Below are positions 6,776 through 38,896 of a stretch of DNA of 39,185 nucleotides, piece by piece. A model generated the notes under the pieces. It saw only the letters and a program-made list of their open reading frames with translations. It was not told the DNA's origin and searched no databases. Each line of letters begins with the position of its first letter. Position 1 is the stretch's first letter. Source of the DNA: a virus. The DNA lies in the IMG/VR virus record IMGVR_UViG_3300046533_000691, positions 1 through 39,185 of that record. One strand, written 5' to 3'. A program made the translations under genes and the position numbers.

Positions 6776-8608
6776 CTACCATCCACCGCCACCCTGTGGC
6801 GAACCAGTGACTGAGGGAGACATCGATCGGCCCCGATCGGCATTGACTCTCGGTCCCGCAGCGCCGCCGGTCGCAGCGATCGCTGCGCTGGCTCCGAAGG
6901 CCTTCGCAGCTTCAGCCAGCTTGGCGGCTGCCTCGGCAATCGCCGCGCCGATATCTACGCCGGCGACCTTCATCAGGGCAGCGCTCTCCTTGATAGAGTC
7001 CCCCGCCTGCTTTCCGCCGTCGGCAATGCTCCGGCTGGCCTCGTCGGCACTCGGCTTCAGATCGATCTTTAGAGCATCCTGAAACTCGCTCTTCGACGGG
7101 ACACGGAAGAAGCTTTTCACCGCGCTCTCTCCCGGTAAGGGACCAGGCATGCCGGCCGCCATGGCTTGCGAGAGGCCGCCAACATCCCTGCCTCGATTGG
7201 ATATGTTCTGAGGCGACCGACTGCGATCAGCGGCAAGCATAGGGCCGCTGGATTCCGTCGAGTTGGCCGCCCAATAAGACTTTAGCCACTCGGGGTCGCG
7301 ATACCCGCCACGGTAGGCTCGCTGATCCTGCGATTGGCGGGCGCTCTGGATGCCCATCGATGCAGCGTATTCCCGAAAGGGTTCACCCCACTGTTCCATC
7401 GACCAAAAGCCTTTGCCCGACTTCTCGGATCCATTCTGGACAGCGGTATTGTAATCAATCGACTTGGAGACCGCGTCCATCGCGGGAACGGCAAATTTCG
7501 AAATAGCGCCGCCTGCGGTAACCTTCAGCTTCTCATAAGAATTAGACAGGCGGTCGACGCTGGCCTGCGTATCGTTCAACACGCGGATGTTGTTGCGCGC
7601 AACAGTGCCATCGATGCCGGTGTCACTCAGAACAGTATAATAATGCGTCAGCCGATCGGTGCTGGTGATCAGCGAGGTCATGCCTTCCAGCACCTGCTTG
7701 TCGGAAAACAACAGCGGCAGCTTGGTCAGATCGCCCTTGACGGCCTTATTGGAGAGCCTAATGAAGGCGTCGATAGTGTCCTCACCCTTTTTCTTGGCCT
7801 TATCCATTTCCTGACTGAGGTTGATGCCGAACTTTTTGAAGTTCGAAATCGTCTCGCGCGACCCCATCTTCTGAAACACGTTGGCGATGTCGTTTGCCGC
7901 TTCTTCGGCCGTGCCTGTGTCTTCGCGGACGGTTTGCAGTGCCGCCATAAGCCGCTTCAAACCATCCTCGCCCTTGTAGCCGATACGGGCGAACGAGTTG
8001 GCGAGCGACGGGATATAGACCGCCATATCCTTCAATTCGAACTGCCCGGACTGACCGCTCGCAACCATGAGATCGAAGGCGTGCTGCATCTGCCCCGCCG
8101 AGATCTTCAGGGCTGAGGATGCTTTCAAGCCGGTATTAGCGATGTCCTCGACGGCGGCACCAGACGCCTGCGTGGTTGCCAGCACAGACGGCAGAAAGTC
8201 CATCGCCTCCTTCAGGCTCATGCCGGAGGACACCAGTGTATCGAGCGCGGTAACGGCCTCGTTGAGCGGCATGGCGAGCTGCTTGCTCTCTTGCTGCATG
8301 GTTACGAATGCGGCCTTGGTTTCTTCCGACGTCGAACCGGCGGTATTGCCGATCCGGGTCATCTGTCGATCGAGTGCGGCAAAATCGACAAGCGCCGCCT
8401 TAGCTCCATAAGCGAGCGCTGCAGGTGCGGCAAAGCGGAGTAATGTGCCAAAGGCAGCCTGAGAACCACGGGCCATCATGCCTTGCTGCCTGTTCAAGGC
8501 CTCGGCGCGGCGATTGACCTGGTCCATTTTCCCGGCGAGAGCCTGAAAGACCTGGCCGGTCTTGTCGACGGCAGAGACTTTCAGTCGCGCTTCGATCTCT
8601 TTGGTCAT
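6776..8608 (-). CDS. Tail tape measure protein
   Basis: A 610-residue protein of the TP901 tape measure family. It sets tail length and exits ahead of the DNA. Residues 1-60 begin with the usual coiled-coil region (VSAVDKTGQVFQALAGKMD). Residues 85-330 carry the conserved core (MTRIGNTAGSTSEETKAAF, MSLKEAMDFLPSVLATTQAS). The C-terminal third is low-complexity, with glycine- and alanine-rich segments. No lytic transglycosylase or peptidase domain is seen. It starts 3 bases after the stop of the frameshifted chaperone product. Confidence 0.9.
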   Translation of the reverse strand: MTKEIEARLKVSAVDKTGQVFQALAGKMDQVNRRAEALNRQQGMMARGSQAAFGTLLRFAAPAALAYGAKAALVDFAALDRQMTRIGNTAGSTSEETKAAFVTMQQESKQLAMPLNEAVTALDTLVSSGMSLKEAMDFLPSVLATTQASGAAVEDIANTGLKASSALKISAGQMQHAFDLMVASGQSGQFELKDMAVYIPSLANSFARIGYKGEDGLKRLMAALQTVREDTGTAEEAANDIANVFQKMGSRETISNFKKFGINLSQEMDKAKKKGEDTIDAFIRLSNKAVKGDLTKLPLLFSDKQVLEGMTSLITSTDRLTHYYTVLSDTGIDGTVARNNIRVLNDTQASVDRLSNSYEKLKVTAGGAISKFAVPAMDAVSKSIDYNTAVQNGSEKSGKGFWSMEQWGEPFREYAASMGIQSARQSQDQRAYRGGYRDPEWLKSYWAANSTESSGPMLAADRSRSPQNISNRGRDVGGLSQAMAAGMPGPLPGESAVKSFFRVPSKSEFQDALKIDLKPSADEASRSIADGGKQAGDSIKESAALMKVAGVDIGAAIAEAAAKLAEAAKAFGASAAIAATGGAAGPRVNADRGRSMSPSVTGSPQGGGGW

Positions 8609-8611
8609 GAC

Positions 8612-9030
8612 CTACGGCTTTCTAAACTCGATGAACCGCCGCGCCCAATAGGCGATGGCAGAGGGCGTCATCGCCTCGATGTCAGCTGCGCGCCAACCCA
8701 GACGAAAGACCATGACATCGACGGCGTCTAGGACGCCGTCGTATCCAGAAAAAAATCGCAGACCGCCCTTTCGAGCTTGAGCGAGTCCACCGCGCTCAAT
8801 GCGCCGAGGCATTCGTACCCCGGCGAAATGAGGATCTTTTGCAGATAGGCGTCGACCACGACCGGATAGGTCACCTGCATCGGTCCGTTTGGCGTTGGTT
8901 GCCACTCCTGCGGCCGACCGAGTCCGTCGCGATAGATCTCCTTATAGGTCGGCTCGCGAAGCTCCACCGTGGAGAATTTCGTATCGTGGACCTCATAGGG
9001 TTTGGCGAGCTTGACTACGATCGGCGCCAT
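8612..9030 (-). CDS. Tail assembly chaperone, -1 frameshift product (gpGT-like)
   Basis: If the ribosome slips back one base on the T TTT TTT run (8749-8755), translation leaves the 100-residue frame after F94. It then adds 45 residues from SGYDGVLDAVDV to FIEFRKP and ends at 8612, giving about 139 residues. The extension (FRLGWRAADIEAMTPSAIAYW) reads like the conserved GpE-type second half of this family, whereas the in-frame tail LDTTAS stops at once. Phage tail chaperones are known to be made by this mechanism. The -1 frame has no start codon of its own that makes sense. Confidence 0.82.
8728..9030 (-). CDS. Tail assembly chaperone, unshifted form (Mu gp41 / GpE type)
   Basis: A 100-residue protein in the position of Mu gp41, P2 gpE and lambda gpG: after the tube gene and before the tape measure. 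The protein (VELREPTYKEIYRDG, PVVVDAYLQKI, LGALSAVDSLKLERAVCDFF) fits the 'phage tail assembly chaperone, E or 41 or 14' family. It keeps the tape measure soluble while the tube polymerises. The start at 9030 overlaps the tube stop by one base (TGATG). Near its 3' end is a seven-T slippery run on the minus strand, see the next entry. Confidence 0.85.
   Translation of the reverse strand: MAPIVVKLAKPYEVHDTKFSTVELREPTYKEIYRDGLGRPQEWQPTPNGPMQVTYPVVVDAYLQKILISPGYECLGALSAVDSLKLERAVCDFFLDTTAS
8749..8755 (-). promoter_or_regulatory. Programmed -1 frameshift slippery heptamer
   Basis: On the minus strand the codons read GAT TTT TTT CTG, so seven consecutive Ts form a perfect X XXY YYZ heptamer (T TTT TTT) in the zero frame, six codons before the zero-frame stop. 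GC-rich sequence with self-complementary GACGGCGTC and GACGCCGTC follows directly. It could form a downstream stem (ACGGCGTC with GACGCCGT) that stimulates slippage. Confidence 0.8.
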
Positions 9031-9401
9031 CAGCCACCCGTCTTGCTGTATTTTTCAGACGCGCCGGAGATGCCGGTCACTTCGCCGGTCTGCCGGTTGA
9101 TCACCGGATCGCCGACGAGGAAGGCGTTGGTGTAGTAGTGGGTGACACTCGAAAATTCCTCTTCGAATGTTACGTTAAACCGATCCGCCTTCATCAAGGC
9201 ATCAAGATCGACGCCCCGGTCGGCGAAATTAAGCTCGAATCTGTAGCCTGTGTTGGTGGCGGTCCGGTCTAGCGATCCGTCCTGATTGGCCACCGCTGCT
9301 ATGGAAATGCTGGACGGGTTTACGTTCAACGTTCCGCGTAGCGTGAACGTGTCCCCCTTCGAGGTGCGCGCAATGATGCGGCCGCCGAAATCTTTGCCCA
9401 T
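9030..9401 (-). CDS. Tail tube protein, Mu gpM-like
   Basis: A 123-residue protein of the Mu gpM tail tube family, which forms the hexameric rings of the inner tube. It begins MGKDFGGRIIARTSKGDTFT and contains the expected TLNVNPSSIS...NTGYRFELNFADRGVDLDALM strand pattern. Length matches the family (about 118). It sits directly after the sheath gene and shares TGATG with the chaperone gene. Confidence 0.88.
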   Translation of the reverse strand: MGKDFGGRIIARTSKGDTFTLRGTLNVNPSSISIAAVANQDGSLDRTATNTGYRFELNFADRGVDLDALMKADRFNVTFEEEFSSVTHYYTNAFLVGDPVINRQTGEVTGISGASEKYSKTGG

Positions 9402-9428
9402 GGTCTAAATCCTCTCTCTGTGCGGCGC

Positions 9429-10916
9429 TTAAGCGGCGCTGAACTGACTGTAGGCGCGGGCAAGGCCGGCCAGGATGTCGAGTGCGTTGACGAAATCGAG
9501 CGGCAGCGAAATGTTGACGCGATCCGGGTTGTCGGCGTCACGCGTTACCACCATTGCCGCGAGCGCCGCCTCGGCGTTCTCAAGAACGCCGGACATCTGT
9601 TGATAGGAATGGAACAGCGTCGCCTTGATGTCCTTCACCGTCGAGATGGCATCGAGATTGTCGGGATTGCTGTCGGCGACCGCCTTGTTGGAATGTTCTG
9701 CGGCAAGGTCGGCGCGGAATTTCTTCAGCGCATAGGTGACCTGGTAGATGCGCTGGATATCGCGGAAGGTCGTATCCGGCGCGCCGTTGGCGGTCTGTTG
9801 CTGCGTGATGATCTTGTCGATCGTCACGTCGCCGTTGCGATTGATCGACCAGGTCGAAACGCCGTTCTTCAGGAAGGCATCGCGCGTCGCATAGTCCATC
9901 CAGTAGGCGCGCAATCGCGGTGCCGACAGACCCTGAACGACGAGGCCCGTCTGGTTTCGCGAGACGTCGCCGTTCGCGCCGCCTGCGGACCATGCGGCGA
10001 TGCGCGCGACGAAAGCCGCGACCCAGAGATAATCCGGTTCAGCAAAGCCGCCGGCAGAGAAGCGCGGGATCATGGTCAAGTGCCAGCTGTCTTTGGCCAA
10101 CGCCTTTGTGACCAAGTTAGAAGAGGTGTCGGTGGCTGGGTAGAATGCGTGGCCATAGAGCTGCTGCGCGTAGGACCAGCGACCCGACACATTGTTGAGG
10201 AAACTGTCCAGCAATGCGACGTTCGCTGTATCTCCGAAGGCGCTGACGATCATCTCGTAGGGATCGTCGTTCATAGCGGCGAGAATGGCGGAAAGATCCG
10301 GCACTCCGGCACCAGCCGTACCAACCGCAAAAGTCAGGAGGCCCGCAAAGGCGTTCACGGTGTCCAAGACTGGGACGAAGGCATCGATGCCGGTGGAGAA
10401 GGCGCCCTTGTGGCGGGCGGTCATCGTGACAACATTGGTGGCGACCGTCGCCGTGAACGGCAGCGAAACGCTGGTCAGTGGGTTGTAGTAGGCATTGATA
10501 GCCGCCGCTAGCGCTGTGGCAACCGCATTGGCTGTGTCGCCGGCATTGATCTGCACCGAAATTCTTTCGCCGGCGATCTGCAGAACACCCTGTCCGCCAG
10601 CCGCCGGGACTGCGCCAACCGTCACCGTGCGAATTTCTGCAGTGCCGACTTCAGCGACGCGGCCGATCCAGATTTCCTGCGCCGGCGCGTTCTTGCGGGA
10701 GATCAGGAACATTGCTTCCAGCATCGATCCGGCGCCGGCCAGACGGCGGGCATCATTGCGGGTATTGCATAGGGCGAGATTGCTTTCAGCCAGGGCGCCA
10801 GCCGCCAGCCCCAAGCCGAGTAGGATCAGCCGGTTTTCGTTTTCGAAGTTGCCACCCGACGTCACGTCGAAGGTGAAAATCGGCGCCGTCAGGTTCGCCG
10901 GGATATTACTCGCCAT
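9429..10916 (-). CDS. Tail sheath protein, Mu gpL-like
   Basis: A 495-residue protein, the contractile sheath subunit. The length is close to Mu gpL (495). Recognisable segments include FENENRLILLGLGLAAGAL, the central FYPATDTSSNL region and the C-terminal conserved TTFRDIQRIYQVTYALKKFR. I choose the ATG at 10916 because GGAGG lies 8 bases upstream; the ATG at 10922 is only 3 bases from the same site. The gene overlaps the upstream DUF2635 gene by 11 bases. Confidence 0.92.
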   Translation of the reverse strand: MASNIPANLTAPIFTFDVTSGGNFENENRLILLGLGLAAGALAESNLALCNTRNDARRLAGAGSMLEAMFLISRKNAPAQEIWIGRVAEVGTAEIRTVTVGAVPAAGGQGVLQIAGERISVQINAGDTANAVATALAAAINAYYNPLTSVSLPFTATVATNVVTMTARHKGAFSTGIDAFVPVLDTVNAFAGLLTFAVGTAGAGVPDLSAILAAMNDDPYEMIVSAFGDTANVALLDSFLNNVSGRWSYAQQLYGHAFYPATDTSSNLVTKALAKDSWHLTMIPRFSAGGFAEPDYLWVAAFVARIAAWSAGGANGDVSRNQTGLVVQGLSAPRLRAYWMDYATRDAFLKNGVSTWSINRNGDVTIDKIITQQQTANGAPDTTFRDIQRIYQVTYALKKFRADLAAEHSNKAVADSNPDNLDAISTVKDIKATLFHSYQQMSGVLENAEAALAAMVVTRDADNPDRVNISLPLDFVNALDILAGLARAYSQFSAA

Positions 10917-11121
10917 CGTCATTCACCTCCGGTTTCGCATCGGGCTCCATGTCAGCCGATCGCGTCGTTTCTTCATCGACCTGAACGAGATCGCCGTCTG
11001 CAACGAGGCGAAGCTCATAGGCACTAAGTGGATTGATGCGGCGCCCATCCTCCGGCCAATCCGGCTGAAGGCCGGGCATGGGAATGCGCTTTCCCGGCGC
11101 GGGCTTGTAGAATTCATCCAT
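10906..11121 (-). CDS. Small tail protein, DUF2635 (Mu gp38-like)
   Basis: A 71-residue protein with the DUF2635 pattern: PGKRIPMPGLQPDWPEDGRR, then a hydrophobic segment LSAYELRLVADGDLV and an acidic tail. In Mu-like phages this small protein always precedes the sheath gene; its function is unknown. It overlaps the start of the sheath gene, so both are likely translated together. Confidence 0.8.
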   Translation of the reverse strand: MDEFYKPAPGKRIPMPGLQPDWPEDGRRINPLSAYELRLVADGDLVQVDEETTRSADMEPDAKPEVNDDGE

Positions 11122-11136
11122 GATGGATCTCCGATG

Positions 11137-11850
11137 TCAGGGCGATAGGTCGTCGGGACCGGACGTGGTGGGACCGGTCGTGATGTGAATTTGCCTCAAT
11201 GGCTGCAGCGGCTCGGGCACAAAATAGGCCGCGAGTGCCGCAAGCTTCCCCTTGGCATAGGATGCGTCCGGAAGCTGGTCATAGAGCGATCTGATCGGCT
11301 GAGGCAGTCCACCATCCGTCATGTCGAAATCGTCGTCGCGGATCTCGCAGTGCATCCGGATGGTCACGCGCTGCCAGCGCATGCCAATCTCGGGAACAGC
11401 GAAGGGCTCGTACTCGGTCTCGGTGATCTGACGTACAAGCCTGCGCCATAGCCCGCCTTGTTGACTGCGTTCCAACAGCCATCGGACTTGCGCACAAAGA
11501 GCCGCCAAAATGAGGCGAGCTTCCGGATCGTCGGTTGCCATCGCATCGGCAAATTCGCCGCCCTCGTCGCCGGATACAACGGCAAGCTCGGCGATGATCT
11601 CCAGCACGGCATCGGCGCTGGTATCGCTTGCTGCCGCATGTGGCCCACGCAGCTTCACGCCGCTCTTGTTGGTGTAGAGTGAAAGGACCGGTGTGAATGC
11701 AGCGGACGGATCGATGTCCTGCAGCGCTACGGCACGGCTATCAAAGACGCGCTTGCCCGCGCGCGTCGGATAGCCACTACCAGCCTCGATCGCCGCCGTT
11801 GGGCAGAGGATCTCGATGGCGGCAAGGCGCAGGGCTTCAGCAGCGAGCAT
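11137..11850 (-). CDS. Probable tail terminator protein
   Basis: A 237-residue protein. The start MLAAEALRLAAIEILCP at 11850, one base after the preceding stop, is preferred to the longer open frame reaching 11952, which overlaps the upstream gene. The N-terminal pattern (AALEIL..T, then RVFDSRAVAL and PVLSLYT) is like tail terminator proteins that cap the tube and sheath and bind the head. The C-terminal 130 residues are longer than in gpU and carry no motif I know. Its place between head-joining and sheath genes supports the call. Confidence 0.6.
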   Translation of the reverse strand: MLAAEALRLAAIEILCPTAAIEAGSGYPTRAGKRVFDSRAVALQDIDPSAAFTPVLSLYTNKSGVKLRGPHAAASDTSADAVLEIIAELAVVSGDEGGEFADAMATDDPEARLILAALCAQVRWLLERSQQGGLWRRLVRQITETEYEPFAVPEIGMRWQRVTIRMHCEIRDDDFDMTDGGLPQPIRSLYDQLPDASYAKGKLAALAAYFVPEPLQPLRQIHITTGPTTSGPDDLSP

Positions 11851-11851
11851 G

Positions 11852-12259
11852 TCAGCTTTCCGGTAGGGATTTTGCGATCCCGAGCGTGGCCACGACATTG
11901 CCGAGACCATCGGGATCAAATTGCGTGACGGTGAACAGCGCGCCATCGGCATCGCGGCGCACGACGAAATCGGTTGCGAACAGTTGGCCAGGAATTAGCC
12001 GGATCGATGCCGTGCGAATGAGACTTCGATGCAGCAGTCGACCGGTCCCTGTCTCCGGCTGCATTTTGATCTCTCGCTCGATCATCGTGTTTTCGTAGAA
12101 GCAGGCCGACGTCGCATAGGGCTCCGATGTCGGCGAACGCTTCAGAGCGCCATTGACGCCACCGCCGCGCGCGACCGGGAAGATCGTAACAGCGGTGCCG
12201 TGGACGCTTTCGACGATGGAGCGGCTGGATTTCGCCAGCCGCTCGAAGATGTTGAGCAT
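11852..12259 (-). CDS. Probable head-tail joining protein
   Basis: A 135-residue, beta-rich protein (GTAVTIFPVARGGGVNG, then the segment around 100-125 ending FTVTQFDPDGLGNVVATLGI). Size, composition and position between the capsid block and the tail genes match head-tail stoppers such as lambda FII or Mu gp36/gp37 analogues. No diagnostic motif is present, so the function is inferred mainly from order. Confidence 0.55.
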   Translation of the reverse strand: MLNIFERLAKSSRSIVESVHGTAVTIFPVARGGGVNGALKRSPTSEPYATSACFYENTMIEREIKMQPETGTGRLLHRSLIRTASIRLIPGQLFATDFVVRRDADGALFTVTQFDPDGLGNVVATLGIAKSLPES

Positions 12260-12264
12260 CGCCG

Positions 12265-12600
12265 TCAGACCGTTGTCGGACCGAGACGGATGCTGCCGGT
12301 CGTATCGGCAGAGAGCGCATCAGCGATCACGGTACCGATCAAAGTGTTGCCGGCCGATGTCGTCGTCGCCAGCTTGTTCGTGGCATCCCAATAGATCTTG
12401 GCGCCAGTTGCCCAAGCCTGCCCGGTCGTTTTCGGCAGGCTGTAGCAACCACTCAGCTGCATGGAGATCAACACGCCGGCAACGGCGGTAACCGCGGATA
12501 TCCCGATCAGGGAGCCGATGATGACCGGGAGACCCGAAACGACGCCGCCGGTAGGAGCCACGACGTCGAGAGACTGTCCCGGCTGTAGGAAGTTTTTCAT
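12265..12600 (-). CDS. DUF2190 capsid-associated protein
   Basis: A 111-residue protein of the DUF2190 family (MKNFLQPGQSLDVVAPTGGV, GLPVIIGSLIGISAVTA, KIYWDATNKLATTTSAGN), often annotated as capsid decoration or head fibre protein. It lies directly after the major capsid gene, as lambda gpD-type proteins do. I start at 12600 because GAGG is 8 bases upstream; the ATG at 12606 is too close to it. Confidence 0.85.
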   Translation of the reverse strand: MKNFLQPGQSLDVVAPTGGVVSGLPVIIGSLIGISAVTAVAGVLISMQLSGCYSLPKTTGQAWATGAKIYWDATNKLATTTSAGNTLIGTVIADALSADTTGSIRLGPTTV

Positions 12601-12663
12601 GTCCATATCCTCGCGAGGTTGAATTCTGAGAAGGAAGCGAGCGGCCAGAACGGCCGCGCGCGA

Positions 12664-14283
12664 TCAGACGCCGGCGTTCTTGAAGCCGAAGCGGAAGTCT
12701 GTGGGGCCGCAACCGAAATCGTGCTCGACGGTCATGGCCATACCCTGACGACCGAAGGGGTTTTCGATGCGGACGCGCGGGGCTTCGTAGCCTTCAAGAT
12801 AGCCCCATCGATAGTTGGAGCCGGCAGCGAGATCGGGGAACAGGTACCAGGACTTGTCAGAGATCTGGGCTGTATCGACGGGCGTCATCTTGCCAGAGAA
12901 TATATTGACGTTGGCGACCTGCGCCGGGGTAATGCCGGTCAGGAGCTTCTCCGCAGCCGTTATCGTGTCGGGGCCGGTCAACATAACCTGAGGGCGGTTG
13001 GCAAGGAGCGGGTTGCCGTCGAGGCTTTTCTGCTTTGCCATTGCCGCCCTGCCTAGCGAGACAGGATCCACGTCAATCGCCGCAGCTACTGCAGCGAGGT
13101 TCTTGTGCGTGGCATGGAAGACGGTCAGACCATCGGAAAGGACCCCGTTGAACGCGGTTGCGTAGAACGTGATCTCCTCGAACAGCGCCACCATGCTGCC
13201 GTAGTCGGCAAGAACCTCGGCGATCGCACCAAGATCGTCGTTGATCATCAGCTGTCGGGAGACCGAAATCGCACGGGCGTAGGACAGGACCTGCAGGGTC
13301 TCGGCGCCCTCGCTGAACGATCCGTACTTGATCTCGCCATCTTCCAGAACGCGCGTCAGCATCGGGAAGTCGCCGATCTTCAGTGACGTATGCGGGCGGA
13401 AATCCCGGAAATTCCGTTGGCGGGCGATGCTCCGATAGGTTGGTTGCGCCAAAGCATATCGAGCTTCGAGGGTGCGGTTGATTGCGCCGCTCATCGTCAG
13501 CGGGAAGTCGGAGGTCGTGTGAGCCGCACGGGTGAAAATGTCTTCGACCTGGCGGACATTGCGCGGAGCACCGCGCTGCTCGATGGCGGCGGATGCGATG
13601 TCGATCAGGCCATCTTCCATGTAGCCGCGCGCTGCAGCGCTTGGGCCGGCAGCGGGAAGCGGGGTACCGAGGCGGTAGGCAAGCGCCTCGATCCGCGCAT
13701 TGCGACGGGTCTCAGCCTCATCCGTGATGACCCGGATCGGTGAGGTGCGTGTGGTCGAGCCGGCAAGATGGTCGAAGGCCTGAGAGCGGAAGGCTTCGAT
13801 CGTGACGTTGGCACGGATTGCGTCCTGAATGGTCTGGATGGGCATCCCGGCACGCGTCCCCATATCAAGGATATCGGCGGCACGCGATGCGCCTACTTCC
13901 GGCGTCGGAAGATTGGTCGGCTGGTTGCGGGAGGCTTCGGCAGCTTCCTCCGTAGCGATGTCCGCCTGCAACTTGCGAACTTCTTCCAGCAGAGACGTGT
14001 GCTCGGCTTGGATCGCACGCGCAGCGTCAGGAGCCGTGTCATCCTTGATCTCGGCAAGCTTCGCGGTGGCGCGAGCCGTCAGATCGAGCAAATTGGCTCG
14101 CATCGCTGCAAGTGAAATCGCAAAGTGGTGGGCGTGACCGGAAACCCAATCCGCAAGGCCAGACGTTGCCAGGTGAGCGGGATGCTGCGCTGCAAAGACT
14201 TCGGTACTGGCACCGAAGAAGATCATGGAAGCGACAGCCAACGCGAGTGCTACCGCTACGAAACCGTAGGTTCTCTTCATCAT
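12664..14283 (-). CDS. Major capsid protein with signal-peptide-like N-terminus
   Basis: A 539-residue protein. Residues 250-539 look like the HK97-fold capsid body of the phage U35/gpT-like group (FRPHTSLKIGDFPMLTRVLE, SYARAISVSRQLMIND, FHATHKNLA). Residues 60-130 are a charged helical delta domain (RANLLDLTARATAKLAEIKD) expected to be removed by the upstream protease. Residues 1-32 are odd: MMKRTYGFVAVALALAVA...TEVFAAQ reads as a Sec signal peptide with an A-x-A-like site. The first ATG has a good AGAGGA site 4 bases upstream, so this start seems real; the internal Met61 (14103) lacks one. Confidence 0.85.
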   Translation of the reverse strand: MMKRTYGFVAVALALAVASMIFFGASTEVFAAQHPAHLATSGLADWVSGHAHHFAISLAAMRANLLDLTARATAKLAEIKDDTAPDAARAIQAEHTSLLEEVRKLQADIATEEAAEASRNQPTNLPTPEVGASRAADILDMGTRAGMPIQTIQDAIRANVTIEAFRSQAFDHLAGSTTRTSPIRVITDEAETRRNARIEALAYRLGTPLPAAGPSAAARGYMEDGLIDIASAAIEQRGAPRNVRQVEDIFTRAAHTTSDFPLTMSGAINRTLEARYALAQPTYRSIARQRNFRDFRPHTSLKIGDFPMLTRVLEDGEIKYGSFSEGAETLQVLSYARAISVSRQLMINDDLGAIAEVLADYGSMVALFEEITFYATAFNGVLSDGLTVFHATHKNLAAVAAAIDVDPVSLGRAAMAKQKSLDGNPLLANRPQVMLTGPDTITAAEKLLTGITPAQVANVNIFSGKMTPVDTAQISDKSWYLFPDLAAGSNYRWGYLEGYEAPRVRIENPFGRQGMAMTVEHDFGCGPTDFRFGFKNAGV

Positions 14284-29637: not shown

Positions 29638-29809
29638 CGCACAAGAGATCGAACGCCTTTACCGCGCCGTCGCCGATGGCGAGCCCCAGCGCGAGATCCT
29701 GCAGCTGATCTACGATCTGTTCGGCGAACACTTCGACCTTCGCCCACCAGTCGCTGAACTGCGTCTGGCTTCCCTCTGTGGGACAGGGGGGGGTGTCAAG
29801 CGTGGCTGA
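29624..29809 (+). CDS. Small hypothetical protein upstream of clamp gene
   Basis: A 61-residue acidic helical protein (MDVTDAQEIERLYRAVADGE, LQLIYDLFGEHFDLRPPVAE). GGAGG lies 8 bases before the ATG at 29624, which is inside the preceding gene by 14 bases. A run of eight Gs (29786-29793) lies near its 3' end, just before the clamp start. Function unknown. Confidence 0.62.
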   Translation: MDVTDAQEIERLYRAVADGEPQREILQLIYDLFGEHFDLRPPVAELRLASLCGTGGGVKRG

Positions 29810-33781: not shown

Positions 33782-34146
33782 TGTCGCGCCGTGACCGCAT
33801 TCGAGCCAAAGTCATGGCACGGGTCTTTATCGATCCGGTAACTGGCTGCTGGATCTGGACGGGTCCGACGTCGGGAGATGAAGGTCGCGGCGCTGGATAT
33901 CCGCGCATGTCGCTCGATGGTCAGACGGTAGCGGTCCACATCGTCATGTTCACGATCGAGCACGGCTATGTGCCAGGCAAAAAAGAAATCGATCACGTTT
34001 GCCGCACGCGGCTCTGCGTCAATCCAGATCCGGAACATCTCGAAATGGTGACCCGAAAGGAGAACGCACGCCGCCGCGAAGAGGCAAAGCGCGCGATGAT
34101 CGGTCACAATGGCGGGCCGCGTCTTAAGTGTGAGGAAATCGCATGA
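33781..34146 (+). CDS. HNH endonuclease
   Basis: A 121-residue HNH protein. GCWIWTGPTSGDEGRGAGYP and IDHVCRTRLCVNPDPEHLEM are the first His-containing strand and the finger with the later Asn and His of the HNH_3 type (RLCVNPDPEHLE). It may be a homing-type nuclease or a phage function in processing DNA. In many HNH-containing phages the gene adjoins cos; here it lies in the integration operon. Confidence 0.78.
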   Translation: MSRRDRIRAKVMARVFIDPVTGCWIWTGPTSGDEGRGAGYPRMSLDGQTVAVHIVMFTIEHGYVPGKKEIDHVCRTRLCVNPDPEHLEMVTRKENARRREEAKRAMIGHNGGPRLKCEEIA

Positions 34147-34412
34147 GGGCGCAACGCAACGATATTCTTCCCCTGTCTCTGCCGCCGCTTGGTATCGGCC
34201 GCGAGCAGGCCGCCGCACTGATAGGCATCAGCGCGACTATGTTCGATCGATGCGTCGAGGCGGGCTCTATGCCGTCCCCACGCGCGCTCGGCGGTAGGCT
34301 GCTTTGGGATGTATCCGAATTGACCGCCGCCTTCCGCATGATCCCTCACAGACTGCGGGTGGACGACGACCCGCTTGACGAACCGCACGCTGCGGGCAAT
34401 CCTTGGGATTGA
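34143..34412 (+). CDS. Excisionase-like / AlpA-type HTH protein
   Basis: An 89-residue protein with a MerR/AlpA-like winged helix (GIGREQAAALIGISATMFDR, MPSPRALGGRLLWDVSELTA). It lies one base ahead of the integrase gene (TGATG), the usual place of a recombination directionality factor. ATGA coupling to the HNH gene. The Xis role is inferred from position and fold. Confidence 0.72.
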   Translation: MRAQRNDILPLSLPPLGIGREQAAALIGISATMFDRCVEAGSMPSPRALGGRLLWDVSELTAAFRMIPHRLRVDDDPLDEPHAAGNPWD

Positions 34413-35632
34413 TGAGCAAAATGTATCCAAAACTACCGAAGGGCGTATCGCTCGATCGCGAATTCCGCACCAAGGAAGCGCGGTTTTATTTCCGCGCGCC
34501 TGGTCGACCCAAGGTCAGACTGCATGAGGAGCCTGGCACCGACGAGTTTGACAAAGAGGTCGCCTGCGCCCGCCTGAATATCCCTTACGTCAAACCATGT
34601 GACGTACCGAAGATAGATCCGCTCAACCGCAAGGCCGCTGAAGGTTCGTTCCAATGGCTGGTGCAGCAATACAAAAAGCGCGCCGTTGGCACGATGGCGC
34701 TCGACCAACTGGCTAGGCGCGTTCGGTTGATGGAAGAGATCTGCGAGAGCAAGACACCGAAGAGCAAGACAAGACGCGGCGACATTCCATTCAAGCTGCT
34801 CGAAAAGAAACACGTCATCGAGATCCGTGACGAGTTGCGCCAGACGGCCGGTGCCCGGAATAATCTCGTGAAATATCTATCGGCCATGTTCGGGTGGGCG
34901 ATGGAGAGCGACCTTGCCGACCGCAATCCCGCTCTACGCATCAAGAAAATGGACAGTGGCGACGGCTTCCACGCGTGGACGATTGCCGAGGTTGAACAGT
35001 TCGAAGCCAGGCACCCGCCAGGCACAAAGGCGAACTTGTATATGAGCATGGCGCTGTATACTGGATTGCGCCTGCAGGAGTTGGCGATCATGGGCCGCCA
35101 GCATGTCCGGGACGGATGGCTCACAATCCGGCCCGGTAAGACGAAGAAGTCGAGCGGGGTGGTTGTTCAGATTCCGGTCCTGTCGGCACTGCAACAGCGC
35201 CTGGACAGCCAGCCATTAAAGCAGATGACCTACATGGTCACAGAATATGGCAAGCCGTTCAGTGTGAACGGTCTTGGCAACAAGATGCGGGATTGGTGCG
35301 ACGAGGCGGAGCTGTTCCATTGTTCGTCGCACGGCTTGCGCAAGGCAGGCGCCACGATGGCGGCTGAGAACGGTGCGACCGACGATGAGCTGATGGCCAT
35401 CTTCGGATGGACGACGAAGCAGCAGACGACGCTCTATACCAAGTCAGCGAACCGCAAGAAGCTTGCCGGCGGCGCGATGCATAAGCTGTCGCGGGAACAA
35501 ACGAGCACAGATTTTGTCCCACACCCCGAGGGGGTTGAAAAAAGTGGGACAAAATCTGTTGAAAAGATCAACGAAAACAACGTTGAAAAAATGGAATGGT
35601 GCCCAGAAGAGGTGTCAAGCAAGCGTGAATAA
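34412..35632 (+). CDS. int: Tyrosine integrase
   Basis: A 406-residue tyrosine recombinase. An SAM-like core-binding region lies around residues 85-165 (QWLVQQYKKRAVGTMALDQL, NNLVKYLSAMFGWAMESDLA). The catalytic part has TGLRLQEL (Arg), KTKKSSGVVVQIP (Lys), HGLRKAGAT (His-x-x-Arg), FGWTTKQQTT (Trp) and TLYTKSA (Tyr nucleophile). The remaining 50 residues (PEGVEKSGTKSVEKINENNV, then WCPEEVSSKRE) come from DNA that is also attP: the core matches a tRNA-Leu end. After integration the last residues would be different. Confidence 0.93.
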   Translation: MSKMYPKLPKGVSLDREFRTKEARFYFRAPGRPKVRLHEEPGTDEFDKEVACARLNIPYVKPCDVPKIDPLNRKAAEGSFQWLVQQYKKRAVGTMALDQLARRVRLMEEICESKTPKSKTRRGDIPFKLLEKKHVIEIRDELRQTAGARNNLVKYLSAMFGWAMESDLADRNPALRIKKMDSGDGFHAWTIAEVEQFEARHPPGTKANLYMSMALYTGLRLQELAIMGRQHVRDGWLTIRPGKTKKSSGVVVQIPVLSALQQRLDSQPLKQMTYMVTEYGKPFSVNGLGNKMRDWCDEAELFHCSSHGLRKAGATMAAENGATDDELMAIFGWTTKQQTTLYTKSANRKKLAGGAMHKLSREQTSTDFVPHPEGVEKSGTKSVEKINENNVEKMEWCPEEVSSKRE

Positions 35633-35706
35633 TCAATAGCTTGGCCGGGTGTGGGACAAAAACCGCTTACACAGGATCATTATGTTTTTCGGTCAGCCTG
35701 TCCCAC
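35507..35706. other. Attachment site attP: tRNA-Leu core between inverted arm repeats
   Basis: Core: TGGTGCCCAGAAGAGG at 35597-35612; its complement CCTCTTCTGGGCACCA reads as the last part of a rhizobial tRNA-Leu including the CCA. Right of it the match ends, so no tRNA body follows. Arm 1: a perfect 16-bp inverted repeat, ACAGATTTTGTCCCAC (35507) and GTGGGACAAAATCTGT (35544). Arm 2: GTGGGACAAAAA at 35651 and TGTCCCAC at 35699. The four GTGGGACA copies flank the core as integrase arm sites do. Confidence 0.68.
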
Positions 35707-35768
35707 AATTTCCAGCTCTCAGCACCGAATGACGCCGGGAAGATGTATTGAGTATCTTGGGGAAGACT

Positions 35769-36647
35769 ATGAACGATCACACATTCCAGCCGTGGGGCGG
35801 CGCGGCGCCCGTCGTCATCGATGGCGGCAGGCTCAGTCGCACTTTTCAAGAAGCTGCCGAGAGCTATGTCCGCCAAGGCGGCTCGTCGCGATACCTCGAT
35901 AAGGCCGTTGAGTATTTCAGGGGCAGGGCCGTCCAATCGATCGCTCCAGCCGAGATCAAGCAGATGGCCCTCGACCTTTACCCTCACCACATGGCGTCAA
36001 CCCGCAACCGGCAAGGCATCACGCCAGCCAGGGCGGTGATCTACCATGCGCACGAGCTCGGATGGTGTCATCACATGCGCGTCCGCAGCTTTCGCACTCC
36101 TCGGTCGACGAAGCACTCTCCGGTCGACGGTGCGTGGCTATCGGCTTTCATCAACCAGGCTGACCGCGATCATCTTTTTCACCTGTCGGCACTGGCCATC
36201 TTCATGAACCATACCGCAGCCAGAGTTTCCGAGGCTATCAACCTTCTTGGCGAGCACATCGATTTTCGTCATCGCACCGCGCTGCTGGTCAAGACAAAGA
36301 CCGATGTCATGGCAACCGCCTATCTCACTGACGAGCTGATGTATCGGCTGTACAATTTGGGTGTGAAAGAGGGCGAGCGGGTCTTTCGCTATAAGTGTCG
36401 ATGGGCGGTCAATGAGAGGATCGAGGCCGTCTGCAAAAGAGCCGGCATCAAGTACCGATCGTCACACTCGGTTGGGCGATATTCGTTCGCGACGAACGCG
36501 ATGAACCTAGGGATCGGCGTCAAGACGGCGATGGACGCCGGTCGTTGGAAGTCGTCAAAGATTTTCTTGGAAACCTACGTTCATACCGAGAACGCCGGCC
36601 GCATGGTCGCAGACCGCTTCAACACACAGCGCTACGCAAACCTGTAG
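35769..36647 (+). CDS. Second tyrosine recombinase
   Basis: A 292-residue tyrosine recombinase of a group often found in rhizobial elements. The active-site set is visible: HTAARVSEAINL (Arg), LLVKTKTDVMATA (Lys), SHSVGRYSFATNA (His, Arg), DAGRWKSS (Trp/His position) and LETYVHTENAG (Tyr). The N-terminal domain is short (about 110 residues). It follows attP but is separated from int by 136 bases and has its own GGGGA ribosome site at ATG 35769. It may resolve dimers, assist excision, or belong to a separate element. Confidence 0.85.
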   Translation: MNDHTFQPWGGAAPVVIDGGRLSRTFQEAAESYVRQGGSSRYLDKAVEYFRGRAVQSIAPAEIKQMALDLYPHHMASTRNRQGITPARAVIYHAHELGWCHHMRVRSFRTPRSTKHSPVDGAWLSAFINQADRDHLFHLSALAIFMNHTAARVSEAINLLGEHIDFRHRTALLVKTKTDVMATAYLTDELMYRLYNLGVKEGERVFRYKCRWAVNERIEAVCKRAGIKYRSSHSVGRYSFATNAMNLGIGVKTAMDAGRWKSSKIFLETYVHTENAGRMVADRFNTQRYANL

Positions 36648-36681
36648 CAGGCAGATGGTCTTCGCGAGGTGAAAATCTTGG

Positions 36682-36708
36682 GACGGGCAGGCTTCAGCTA
36701 TGCCCGTC
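36682..36708. terminator. Inverted repeat between convergent genes, possible terminator
   Basis: GACGGGCA (36682-36689) and TGCCCGTC (36701-36708), eight perfect pairs with an 11-base loop, between the convergent recombinase and Tat-protein genes. No long U-run follows on either side, so termination is only likely, not certain. Confidence 0.5.
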
Positions 36709-36728
36709 ACCCATCTTGCGCCCGTCAG

Positions 36729-37145
36729 TTACATGTCTCGGTCAGCTGATGCCGTCAAATCTTTCACGAGTTGAAAAGGCAAACTCATCTTGAACGGACC
36801 ATCACAAAAGACCCATTTCGACGCAGCTCTCTTTGTCTCGATCGCTTGCTCTGTATGCGCCGGAATGAGAACCATCGCGTTGGCGTAGGCGGTCATCTGT
36901 TTAAAGCTGCGGATCTGTTCCTCGCCAGAATTGGCGGCGGTTTCTTTCGCAGCCAATTCAAAACGTCGATAGAGATAGAACACCGCCGCATCAGAAGGAC
37001 AGCGACATGCTGCCTTTGCTCCGGCTGGCGACGTTGCCGTCGCCGCGAGTGCCATCATTCCCCCAAGCACCCTTCGTCGACTAACGTCGACATGCCCCTC
37101 CGCCCGGTCAAACACCGAGGCGGCCTCGTCTACTTCGCGCTGCAT
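36729..37145 (-). CDS. Tat-exported hypothetical protein
   Basis: A 138-residue protein whose segment DVSRRRVLGGMMALAATATS is a twin-arginine signal (SRRRVL) with a hydrophobic core and a PAGAKA cleavage region. The mature part (about 90 residues) has Cys-x-Cys and CDGPFKMSLPF and is otherwise helical. The ATG at 37145 has GGGGA upstream; an upstream GTG at 37160 is possible. Its opposite orientation and isolated place suggest a lysogenic-conversion gene. Function unknown. Confidence 0.65.
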   Translation of the reverse strand: MQREVDEAASVFDRAEGHVDVSRRRVLGGMMALAATATSPAGAKAACRCPSDAAVFYLYRRFELAAKETAANSGEEQIRSFKQMTAYANAMVLIPAHTEQAIETKRAASKWVFCDGPFKMSLPFQLVKDLTASADRDM

Positions 37146-37352
37146 GTTGAATTTCCCCACGGGATTTCATAGCCGGGAAACACCACATAAGGTCCAGATC
37201 GGTATCCCAGCACTTGCCCCACAGCGCCCTGGACGCACTGGCAAAGCCGAAACTATTCAGCGTTTTAAGCCCCATATCTTAGCCGACTTCACTGCCTCTG
37301 TGTGGCATCCGTGAGGCATATCGGTCAATTCGCTTTTATGCGATCTGACTGT

Positions 37353-37613
37353 ATGGCCAGGGACGATTTACATTTTAGATTACGAATATCTGAAGATCTC
37401 AAGAAGAAGATCGGGGCGGCCGCAGCTGCTAACGATCGATCGATGACGGCTGAAATTACCGCCAGGCTCGAAATGTCTTTTCTGCTTGGCGACGCCGATG
37501 ACCAGCTTGCTCCGGACGAACTCGATCTTGCCGACGTATTCGCCGATTTCGAGCGCATGAAGCAAAAGCTAGTGCGGCTGCTGCGAACATCCAGCCGACA
37601 AATCGAGGAATAG
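37353..37613 (+). CDS. Arc-like ribbon-helix-helix repressor
   Basis: An 86-residue protein whose first 45 residues (DLHFRLRISEDLKKKIGAAA, SMTAEITARLEMSF) are the Arc/Mnt-type ribbon-helix-helix: a short strand and two helices with the RSMTAEI motif. The rest is an acidic and helical tail. It probably regulates nearby accessory genes. Starts at 37338 and 37302 are also open, none with a clear ribosome site. Confidence 0.75.
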   Translation: MARDDLHFRLRISEDLKKKIGAAAAANDRSMTAEITARLEMSFLLGDADDQLAPDELDLADVFADFERMKQKLVRLLRTSSRQIEE

Positions 37614-37733
37614 TGCCAACGGACGAACAATCGGCCTTGACCAAGTCCGTCTTCGCGACATTTAGCAAGCGCGCTTGGGCGAGGATTGTTTCACCAACAT
37701 GCGGCATGAAATCTCCACCGAGGAGGAGGAAGC

Positions 37734-37970
37734 GTGTCCCGAAAATATACCAGCCCCTATCTATCCGATTACTGGGGCAAAAAGCTCTCTGTGACCTGCG
37801 AAAAATGCGGGATCAAAAAGCGATACGACATAAATGCGCTGCTCGAAAAAGCTGGTGATCACTGCATGCCCGACCTTAGGCATGTCATGGCCCGCGCCCT
37901 GAATTGCCCGAACGTCGAGAATGTCTACTCGGATATCTGTCAGATCAGATTGAATGAGGCAGATGGTTAA
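37734..37970 (+). CDS. Zinc-ribbon hypothetical protein
   Basis: A 78-residue protein starting at GTG (37734) after a strong GAGGAGG site. LSVTCEKCGIKKRYDINALL and GDHCMPDLRHVMARALNCPN give two Cys pairs (TCEKC, then HC and NC) that may bind zinc. Similar small proteins are frequent in rhizobial phage genomes, function unknown. Confidence 0.6.
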   Translation: MSRKYTSPYLSDYWGKKLSVTCEKCGIKKRYDINALLEKAGDHCMPDLRHVMARALNCPNVENVYSDICQIRLNEADG

Positions 37971-38010
37971 TTCACCGCCAAAATGATCGCGTTGAAGGGC
38001 TCGTCAGCGA

Positions 38011-38361
38011 TCATCTCCCAACTACGACAAGCCCGACCCTTCGAATAGCATCGGCGAATGTTACCCCCATGGCCATGCCACCGATACCGATCACCCCAAG
38101 CGCGCCGACTCCTATGAGCTTCCACCGCCGCACGTCCTCGGTCACCGGCTTCATCTCGGTGACATCATCCTGAACGCCGGAGACGCTGCGCTCGACCTGC
38201 TCGACACGGTCGACCATTTCGTCCATGCGCCGATGCATCGTGGCACGGCTTTGATCTGATTTGTCCTCGGACCGTCGAAAGCTTTCCTGAAGGTTCTTCA
38301 CCCCGGCAACGAGTTCGCCAAGCTGCCTGTGCACGTTCGCATCATATTCCGGAGGCGTCAT
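38011..38361 (-). CDS. DUF1515 phage protein, coiled coil plus membrane anchor
   Basis: A 116-residue protein of the DUF1515 type found in rhizobial phages: PPEYDANVHRQLGELVAGVK, then a coiled coil (MHRRMDEMVDRVEQVERSVS) and a C-terminal transmembrane helix (LIGVGALGVIGIGGMAMGVT). Its layout recalls proteins sitting in the membrane with a coiled coil on one side, and it often lies near the lysis end of late operons. ATG at 38361 is chosen for its match to the family; the frame is open to 38400. Role in lysis is a guess. Confidence 0.75.
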   Translation of the reverse strand: MTPPEYDANVHRQLGELVAGVKNLQESFRRSEDKSDQSRATMHRRMDEMVDRVEQVERSVSGVQDDVTEMKPVTEDVRRWKLIGVGALGVIGIGGMAMGVTFADAIRRVGLVVVGR

Positions 38362-38371
38362 ATCTGCTCTT

Positions 38372-38467
38372 TCAATGGGTAGGGACTGAATTCCACGCAA
38401 GCAAGATCAGGCCTCCCAGCGCCGCCCACATCAGCAGGAAGGAAATCACGCCGGCGGGGATGGGCAT
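38372..38467 (-). CDS. 31-residue membrane microprotein
   Basis: MPIPAGVISFLLMWAALGGL then ILLAWNSVPTH: a single hydrophobic helix, immediately upstream of the DUF1515 gene in the same direction, 10 bases apart. Such tiny membrane proteins beside DUF1515 could belong to the lysis system, but there is no direct evidence. Confidence 0.5.
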   Translation of the reverse strand: MPIPAGVISFLLMWAALGGLILLAWNSVPTH

Positions 38468-38552
38468 TGAAGGCCTGAAGATTGGAGACGTCCTCTACGG
38501 GAACGAGTGGGACGTGATGGGCGAGCGAATCGAGGTTAAAGGGTATCGGTGA
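38460..38552 (+). CDS. Possible 30-residue protein
   Basis: MGIEGLKIGDVLYGNEWDVM then GERIEVKGYR: a hydrophilic frame on the plus strand overlapping the start of the minus-strand microprotein by eight bases. It reads like a folded small beta protein but has only a weak GGGG ribosome site and no neighbour to support it. Confidence 0.25.
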   Translation: MGIEGLKIGDVLYGNEWDVMGERIEVKGYR

Positions 38553-38587: not shown

Positions 38588-38896
38588 TTAGCAAGACTTC
38601 CATACACCATCCTGAAGCCAACCATGCCAGTGCCCAACATGGTGGACGCTTGGATGAAGTGTCGGTCGGTCCAACGATCCATTCCAACTCCAGGATGGGC
38701 CGTCGCTCGGCTTAAAGCCGTTCCCGACCGTCAACAGGCCGAAGCGGCCGCAGCCGCACGGACAGCAATACCAAAAGGAGGTCTCGCCATCGCTATCGAC
38801 CTCGCCGATCGTGAAGCTTCCGGTCAAACGCTGATCGTGAAACGCATCCTTTTCCAGATGCGTTGCCGCGATCGGCGAAGTGATCACTTCGCTCAT
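38588..38896 (-). CDS. DUF6527-like small protein
   Basis: A 102-residue protein with WYCCPCGCGRFGLLTV (a tight set of cysteines that may bind metal) and the C-terminal GPSWSWNGSLDRPTLHPSVH, followed by Trp/His-rich HWHGWLQDG, matching small DUF6527-type proteins in phage late regions. Function unknown. It lies upstream of the microprotein and DUF1515 in the same direction. Confidence 0.6.
   Translation of the reverse strand: MSEVITSPIAATHLEKDAFHDQRLTGSFTIGEVDSDGETSFWYCCPCGCGRFGLLTVGNGFKPSDGPSWSWNGSLDRPTLHPSVHHVGHWHGWLQDGVWKSC

Follow-up and report, generated by a model that had tools for sequence, protein, structure and literature searches.

Sequence comparisons point to an attP with a tRNA-Leu(CAG) core within the 3' end of the integrase gene of a Rhizobiaceae contractile-tail phage

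The window analyzed here is the whole 39,185-bp stretch of IMGVR_UViG_3300046533_000691, a virus record containing contractile-tail phage genes (Table 1). The int gene encodes a tyrosine recombinase harboring the Pfam domain Phage_integrase, with catalytic residues R220, K243, H307, R310, W333, and Y342 (numbered from the ATG at position 34412), which match the lambda-type signature R-K-H-R-(H/W)-Y. In an alignment of 23 sequences, R220, K243, H307, R310, and Y342 were invariant and W333 was nearly so. An N-terminal domain of the arm-binding type, comprising a three-stranded sheet and a helix (E12-16, E23-27, E35-37, H44-54), was predicted, and the top PDB matches of the Int model were full-length lambda integrase on DNA (best match, 1z1b). 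As modeled, Int is a lambda-type integrase with an arm-binding N-terminal domain.

Table 1. Features of the window relevant to the attachment site. Offsets take the start of the 16-mer core as reference.
Feature	Position	Strand	Description
Contractile-tail phage genes			Sheath, baseplate, tape measure, portal, head protease
int	34403..35632	+	Tyrosine recombinase of the lambda type; the attP form has 409 residues
Arm-type site P1 (putative)	35515..35522	+	TGTCCCAC, offset -82, within int
Arm-type site P2 (putative)	35544..35551	-	GTGGGACA on the + strand, offset -53, within int
att core	35589..35612	.	AAATGGAATGGTGCCCAGAAGAGG, 24 bp; read on the minus strand, it is identical to the tRNA-Leu(CAG) 3' end and the 8 bp that follow
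Phage-specific int codons (VSSKRE) and stop	35613..35632	+	In most hosts, DSNLHTLS(S/G)TST takes their place after integration
Arm-type site P'1 (putative)	35651..35658	-	GTGGGACA on the + strand, offset +54; remains at attR in prophages
Arm-type site P'2 (putative)	35699..35706	+	TGTCCCAC, offset +102; remains at attR in prophages

Just past the P' arms, a second open reading frame (positions 35748-36647) encodes a tyrosine recombinase of 299 residues with a Phage_integrase domain, which is related to the integrases of Caulobacter phage Cr30 and Rhizobium phage phiU. Among the loci of integrase relatives compared, only contig L024 has this open reading frame. A phiU-like second att site or tRNA-like core was sought after it, and none was found. 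An Arc-like ribbon-helix-helix protein encoded near the attP region (positions 37302-37613) is a candidate regulator.

The first-pass annotation of the window had recognized a 16-base core equal to the end of a tRNA-Leu. This sequence, TGGTGCCCAGAAGAGG, is present in a single copy in the 39,185-bp record, at positions 35597-35612 of the plus strand, the number of chance matches calculated for a 16-mer being about 2 × 10–5. Its identity with the tRNA end was upheld, and its length was revised, since integrated relatives extend the shared core to 24 bp. The core is located in the final codons of int, the stop codon lying about 20 bp beyond it, and the translation of the int open reading frame, which crosses the core and reads ...EKMEWCPEEVSSKRE*, agrees with the proposal that the frame runs through the core (WCPEE). 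The associated statement that no tRNA body continues the core was also correct, as ARAGORN detected zero tRNAs across the window.

Relatives of int were gathered from genome and viral collections. The integrase of L024 is 96% identical to that of the window, and the contig and the window are collinear from position 33787 to 38484, through the core (93.5% identity); L024 then runs into sequence that matches the start of the window at 82%. Thus, phage DNA is present on both sides of the core. To the right of the core, genes of phage families are located in the window at positions 38011-38400 and 38588-38896. Two additional relatives (L025 and L027) display the same core, with phage DNA on either side and no tRNA body. 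In L003 (Rhizobium lusitanum) and L048 (a metagenome contig), the core runs on into an intact tRNA-Leu(CAG) gene. The attL matches of both loci stop at window position 35612, and the attR matches, carried by L003 itself and by L132 for L048, start at position 35589; the shared core is 24 bp in length because the matches break at these two positions. Exact copies of the core were also found at both bounds (positions 8-23 and 45695-45710) of an isolate prophage record, that of L026. Since two integrated copies lead from the core into tRNA-Leu(CAG), whereas the window and three relatives lead into phage DNA, the region is, as judged from these alignments, the unintegrated attP of a temperate phage inserting into a rhizobial tRNA-Leu gene, in line with its initial description as attP rather than attL or attR.

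An exact 32-bp attB was present in 21 of 394 Rhizobiaceae genomes, and the ten extracted attB sites that were checked all corresponded to tRNA-Leu(CAG). Together with the junctions of L003 and L048, these sites corroborate the predicted tRNA-Leu target: the 3' terminal sequence of the tRNA gene is present in attP as the core, and integration restores the gene. The two close relatives located in the same tRNA, L003 and L048, are both imperfect examples. More distant relatives occupy different tRNA genes, among them Leu-CAA, Met, and Phe, each with its own matching core.

The four putative arm-type sites are copies of the motif GTGGGACA/TGTCCCAC, which occurs six times in the window for 0.76 occurrences expected, a number reached in none of 100 shuffles. 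The two further copies, at positions 29778 and 32129, are unrelated. P1 and P2 belong to a perfect 16-bp inverted repeat (35507-35522/35544-35559). In attP relatives, the four motifs are retained at the same offsets and in the same orientations (-82 forward, -53 reverse, +54 reverse, and +102 forward); of the two pairs, attL copies hold P1 and P2, and attR copies hold P'1 and P'2. The layout is kept across the targets tRNA-Leu(CAG), tRNA-Leu(CAA), tRNA-Met, and tRNA-Phe, and is found with integrases displaying as little as about 35% identity with that of the window. Exceptions exist, as some loci in the broader family have no recognizable motif at these positions. Searching 2.9 million viral contigs for the three-arm layout alone returned nine loci, eight of which have a member of the integrase family where one would be expected; the ninth is a repeat-rich stretch. 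The pair GTGGGACA N39-41 TGTCCCAC alone was less specific (34 matches, most with no int in view). The arms lie next to the core even in L048 and L006, where the end of int is 2.1 and 0.9 kb distant, respectively. The intervening DNA of L048 (positions 11108-13150) consists of about 2 kb of cargo open reading frames without Pfam match, and int stops at residue 368 in this locus. The fixed offsets across the family, on either side of the core as in lambda-type systems, argue for the proposal that the four motifs, arranged in inverted pairs, are integrase arm sites. Conservation of the motifs as protein sequence (VP..SGT in the tail) was disfavored, and a DNA site favored, because the P' pair is non-coding, Sinorhizobium phage phi2LM21 harbors a variant of the motif, and the arms of L048 and L006 are separated from int by cargo.

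Two other explanations of the locus were considered. The window might be a misassembly, or a decayed attL or attR having lost its tRNA, and the virus record indeed offers no evidence of complete ends. However, L024 is an independent contig, and its collinearity across the site led us to reject this explanation; the core also lies between phage DNA in L025 and L027, with the offsets of the P' arms kept. An artifact or a decayed junction is therefore extremely improbable. The inverted motifs might alternatively form an RNA hairpin or a terminator at the 3' end of int, or be the site of another regulator such as an excisionase. The inverted repeat containing P1 and P2 could fold in RNA, and weak terminator-like matches were detected on the minus strand, but the int strand is devoid of any terminator-like site, on which ground the hairpin or terminator reading was rejected. 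Furthermore, the second pair is differently spaced, non-coding, and located beyond the core, all four offsets are tied to the core and not to int, even with cargo in between, and phi2LM21 carries the motif variant at all four positions. We consider a role of the motifs in RNA folding or as the site of another regulator very unlikely. Some of the arm sites may nevertheless be bound by an excisionase.

The coding consequence of integration was deduced by joining the window int to attB in silico. The free-phage protein ends in ...KMEWCPEEVSSKRE (409 aa, tail ...WCPEEVSSKRE), and joining converts ...WCPEEVSSKRE into ...WCPEEDSNLHTLS(S/G)TST. The joined protein, ...KMEWCPEEDSNLHTLS(S/G)TST, comprises 415 residues in eight of ten hosts (tail DSNLHTLSGTST) and 430 or 443 residues in the other two. 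These joins to real attB sites bear out, for the predicted proteins, the anticipated difference between the phage and prophage C-termini and the DSNLH-like reading, which the attL of the R. lusitanum locus also carries. However, this locus, L003, is a remnant of 2.9 kb in which the int N-terminus is frameshifted, and the tail DNA of L048 lies about 2 kb from the catalytic part of int, so that neither is an intact example. Among the relatives compared, no intact prophage with an intact integrase of the window clade reading into tRNA-Leu(CAG) was found. In L003 (positions 8249-11127), attR and attL of the window type are only 2.9 kb apart, and the frameshifted int is accompanied by a single 384-codon open reading frame without Pfam match, as in a remnant or a mini-element.

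Intact-looking read-through was observed in other lineages, tails being read from the catalytic region of int onward rather than from the last tblastn segment. Nine tRNA-Met loci end in GGPGGTRTPNQ(A/S)VMS(R/G)RL (attL of L073, L077, L018, L086, L092, L141, L142, L144, and others). This tail is an antisense reading of tRNA-Met, and where databases list tails of this kind, the phage does not encode them. Antisense reading of tRNAs likewise explains C-termini such as GGPGGTRTPNQAVMSRRL of integrases encoded in prophages.

In Myxococcus phage Mx8, int extends across attP and integration generates a new 3' end that alters the enzyme (PMC6070905). The Islander database treats the Mx8 and SSV integrases, which extend across attP, as explicit exceptions (PMC4383910). 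Both sources cite work on Mx8 int and attP (Tojo 1996; Magrini 1999). As in Mx8, the tyrosine integrase gene of the window spans attP, acquires a new 3' end on integration, and keeps its reading frame open, as indicated by the in-silico joins and the L003 attL tail. In Mx8 the change affects the properties of the integrase, whereas here only about six codons are exchanged for antisense tRNA codons in a tail predicted to be disordered. By architecture, the window belongs to the Mx8 kind, but the comparative data argue against the functional effect described for Mx8.

Residues of Int after about position 363 are predicted to be disordered (pLDDT below 50 for residues 363-406), and several relatives stop at about residue 366. 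Counting identical core regions once, int ends before the core in 34 of 52 loci, 16 of them stopping 2-9 bases short of it; the loci are related, and these stops do not amount to 16 independent events. The frame in which int enters the tRNA differs among loci, and the tail varies with the host tRNA variant. Because the tail is predicted to be disordered, missing in several relatives, often preceded by a stop codon, and read in varied frames, its exchange is most likely a harmless by-product of an arrangement in which the 3' end of int accommodates both the arm sites and the core. The absence of conservation indicates that the tail is probably neutral, and a lineage-specific role is possible. 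Alternatively, the tail exchange could act as a regulatory switch, along the lines proposed for Mx8, with the attP form favoring integration and the attL form having an altered specificity or activity that would stabilize the lysogen or tune excision. Apart from the Mx8 precedent, this explanation draws on the certainty of the exchange at the sequence level, on the identity of the tRNA-encoded tail in the nine tRNA-Met prophages, and on the V-S-(S/G)-K sequence common to the phage-form tails of four related att sites, attR copies implying the tails VSGKPA and VSGKQV. The codons following the core display three synonymous changes and one non-synonymous change between the window and L024, which hints that the short phage-form tail is translated and mildly constrained, the numbers being too small to decide. 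Against a switch, the tail is predicted to be disordered and is missing from several relatives, most family members end before the core, and the new tail is set by the frame of entry and by the host tRNA variant, its length varying over the ten attB sites. Furthermore, the altered C-terminal region is larger in Mx8 than here. A switch is therefore very unlikely. The related idea that the tRNA-encoded tail marks the integrated state, with free-phage and prophage integrases differing in activity or stability, appears slightly less likely still; if it were true, the host tRNA sequence would set the rate of excision.

The following model is highly probable for this Rhizobiaceae phage. The integrase would bind the four putative GTGGGACA sites P1, P2, P'1, and P'2 and carry out recombination between the 24-bp core and its identical counterpart at the 3' end of the host tRNA-Leu(CAG) gene. 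The tRNA would be rebuilt at the int end of the prophage, and P'1 and P'2 would move to the opposite end. Because the int stop codon lies so close beyond the core, the last six codons (VSSKRE) would be exchanged for codons read antisense from the tRNA. The phage and prophage forms of the enzyme would both work because the swapped residues are located in a dispensable disordered tail. The family provides evidence that tRNA-derived integrase tails are usually by-products.

The genes of SSV-type suicidal archaeal integrases are split on integration (PMC8371274). The window similarly carries the recombination site within the integrase gene, but only the codons after about position 403 change and the catalytic part remains whole, and an SSV-like split integrase was therefore rejected. 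The enzyme shares with lambda integrase its arm-binding, core-binding, and catalytic domains and the arm sites flanking the core. Lambda differs in the motif, number, and spacing of its arm sites, in having its core outside int, and in its target, which is not a tRNA gene. In phages of the BPs type, a protein whose gene spans attP likewise receives a different C-terminus on integration; that protein is the repressor and the change has a demonstrated function, whereas the gene of the window is int. Integration-dependent immunity is described for mycobacteriophages such as BPs (PMC4557955).

We know of no experimentally mapped attP in this family of rhizobial phage integrases. The window provides the family with a complete, testable attP map, comprising the core, the tRNA that it targets, and, at constant distances from the core, four putative arm sites. 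The offsets hold across different tRNA targets, and the layout alone locates attP in unannotated contigs. Phage phi2LM21 (MF614627), for which a tRNA-Phe attachment site was annotated by its authors, encodes an integrase 38% identical to that of the window and displays the same four-arm geometry around its core, with the motif TGTCCAG in place of TGTCCCAC. Its int gene ends 106 bp before the core, so that no tail swap takes place, unlike in the window. In the attP of L106 and L108, the cores resemble tRNA 3' ends in the orientation opposite to int, and the arm geometry is unchanged.
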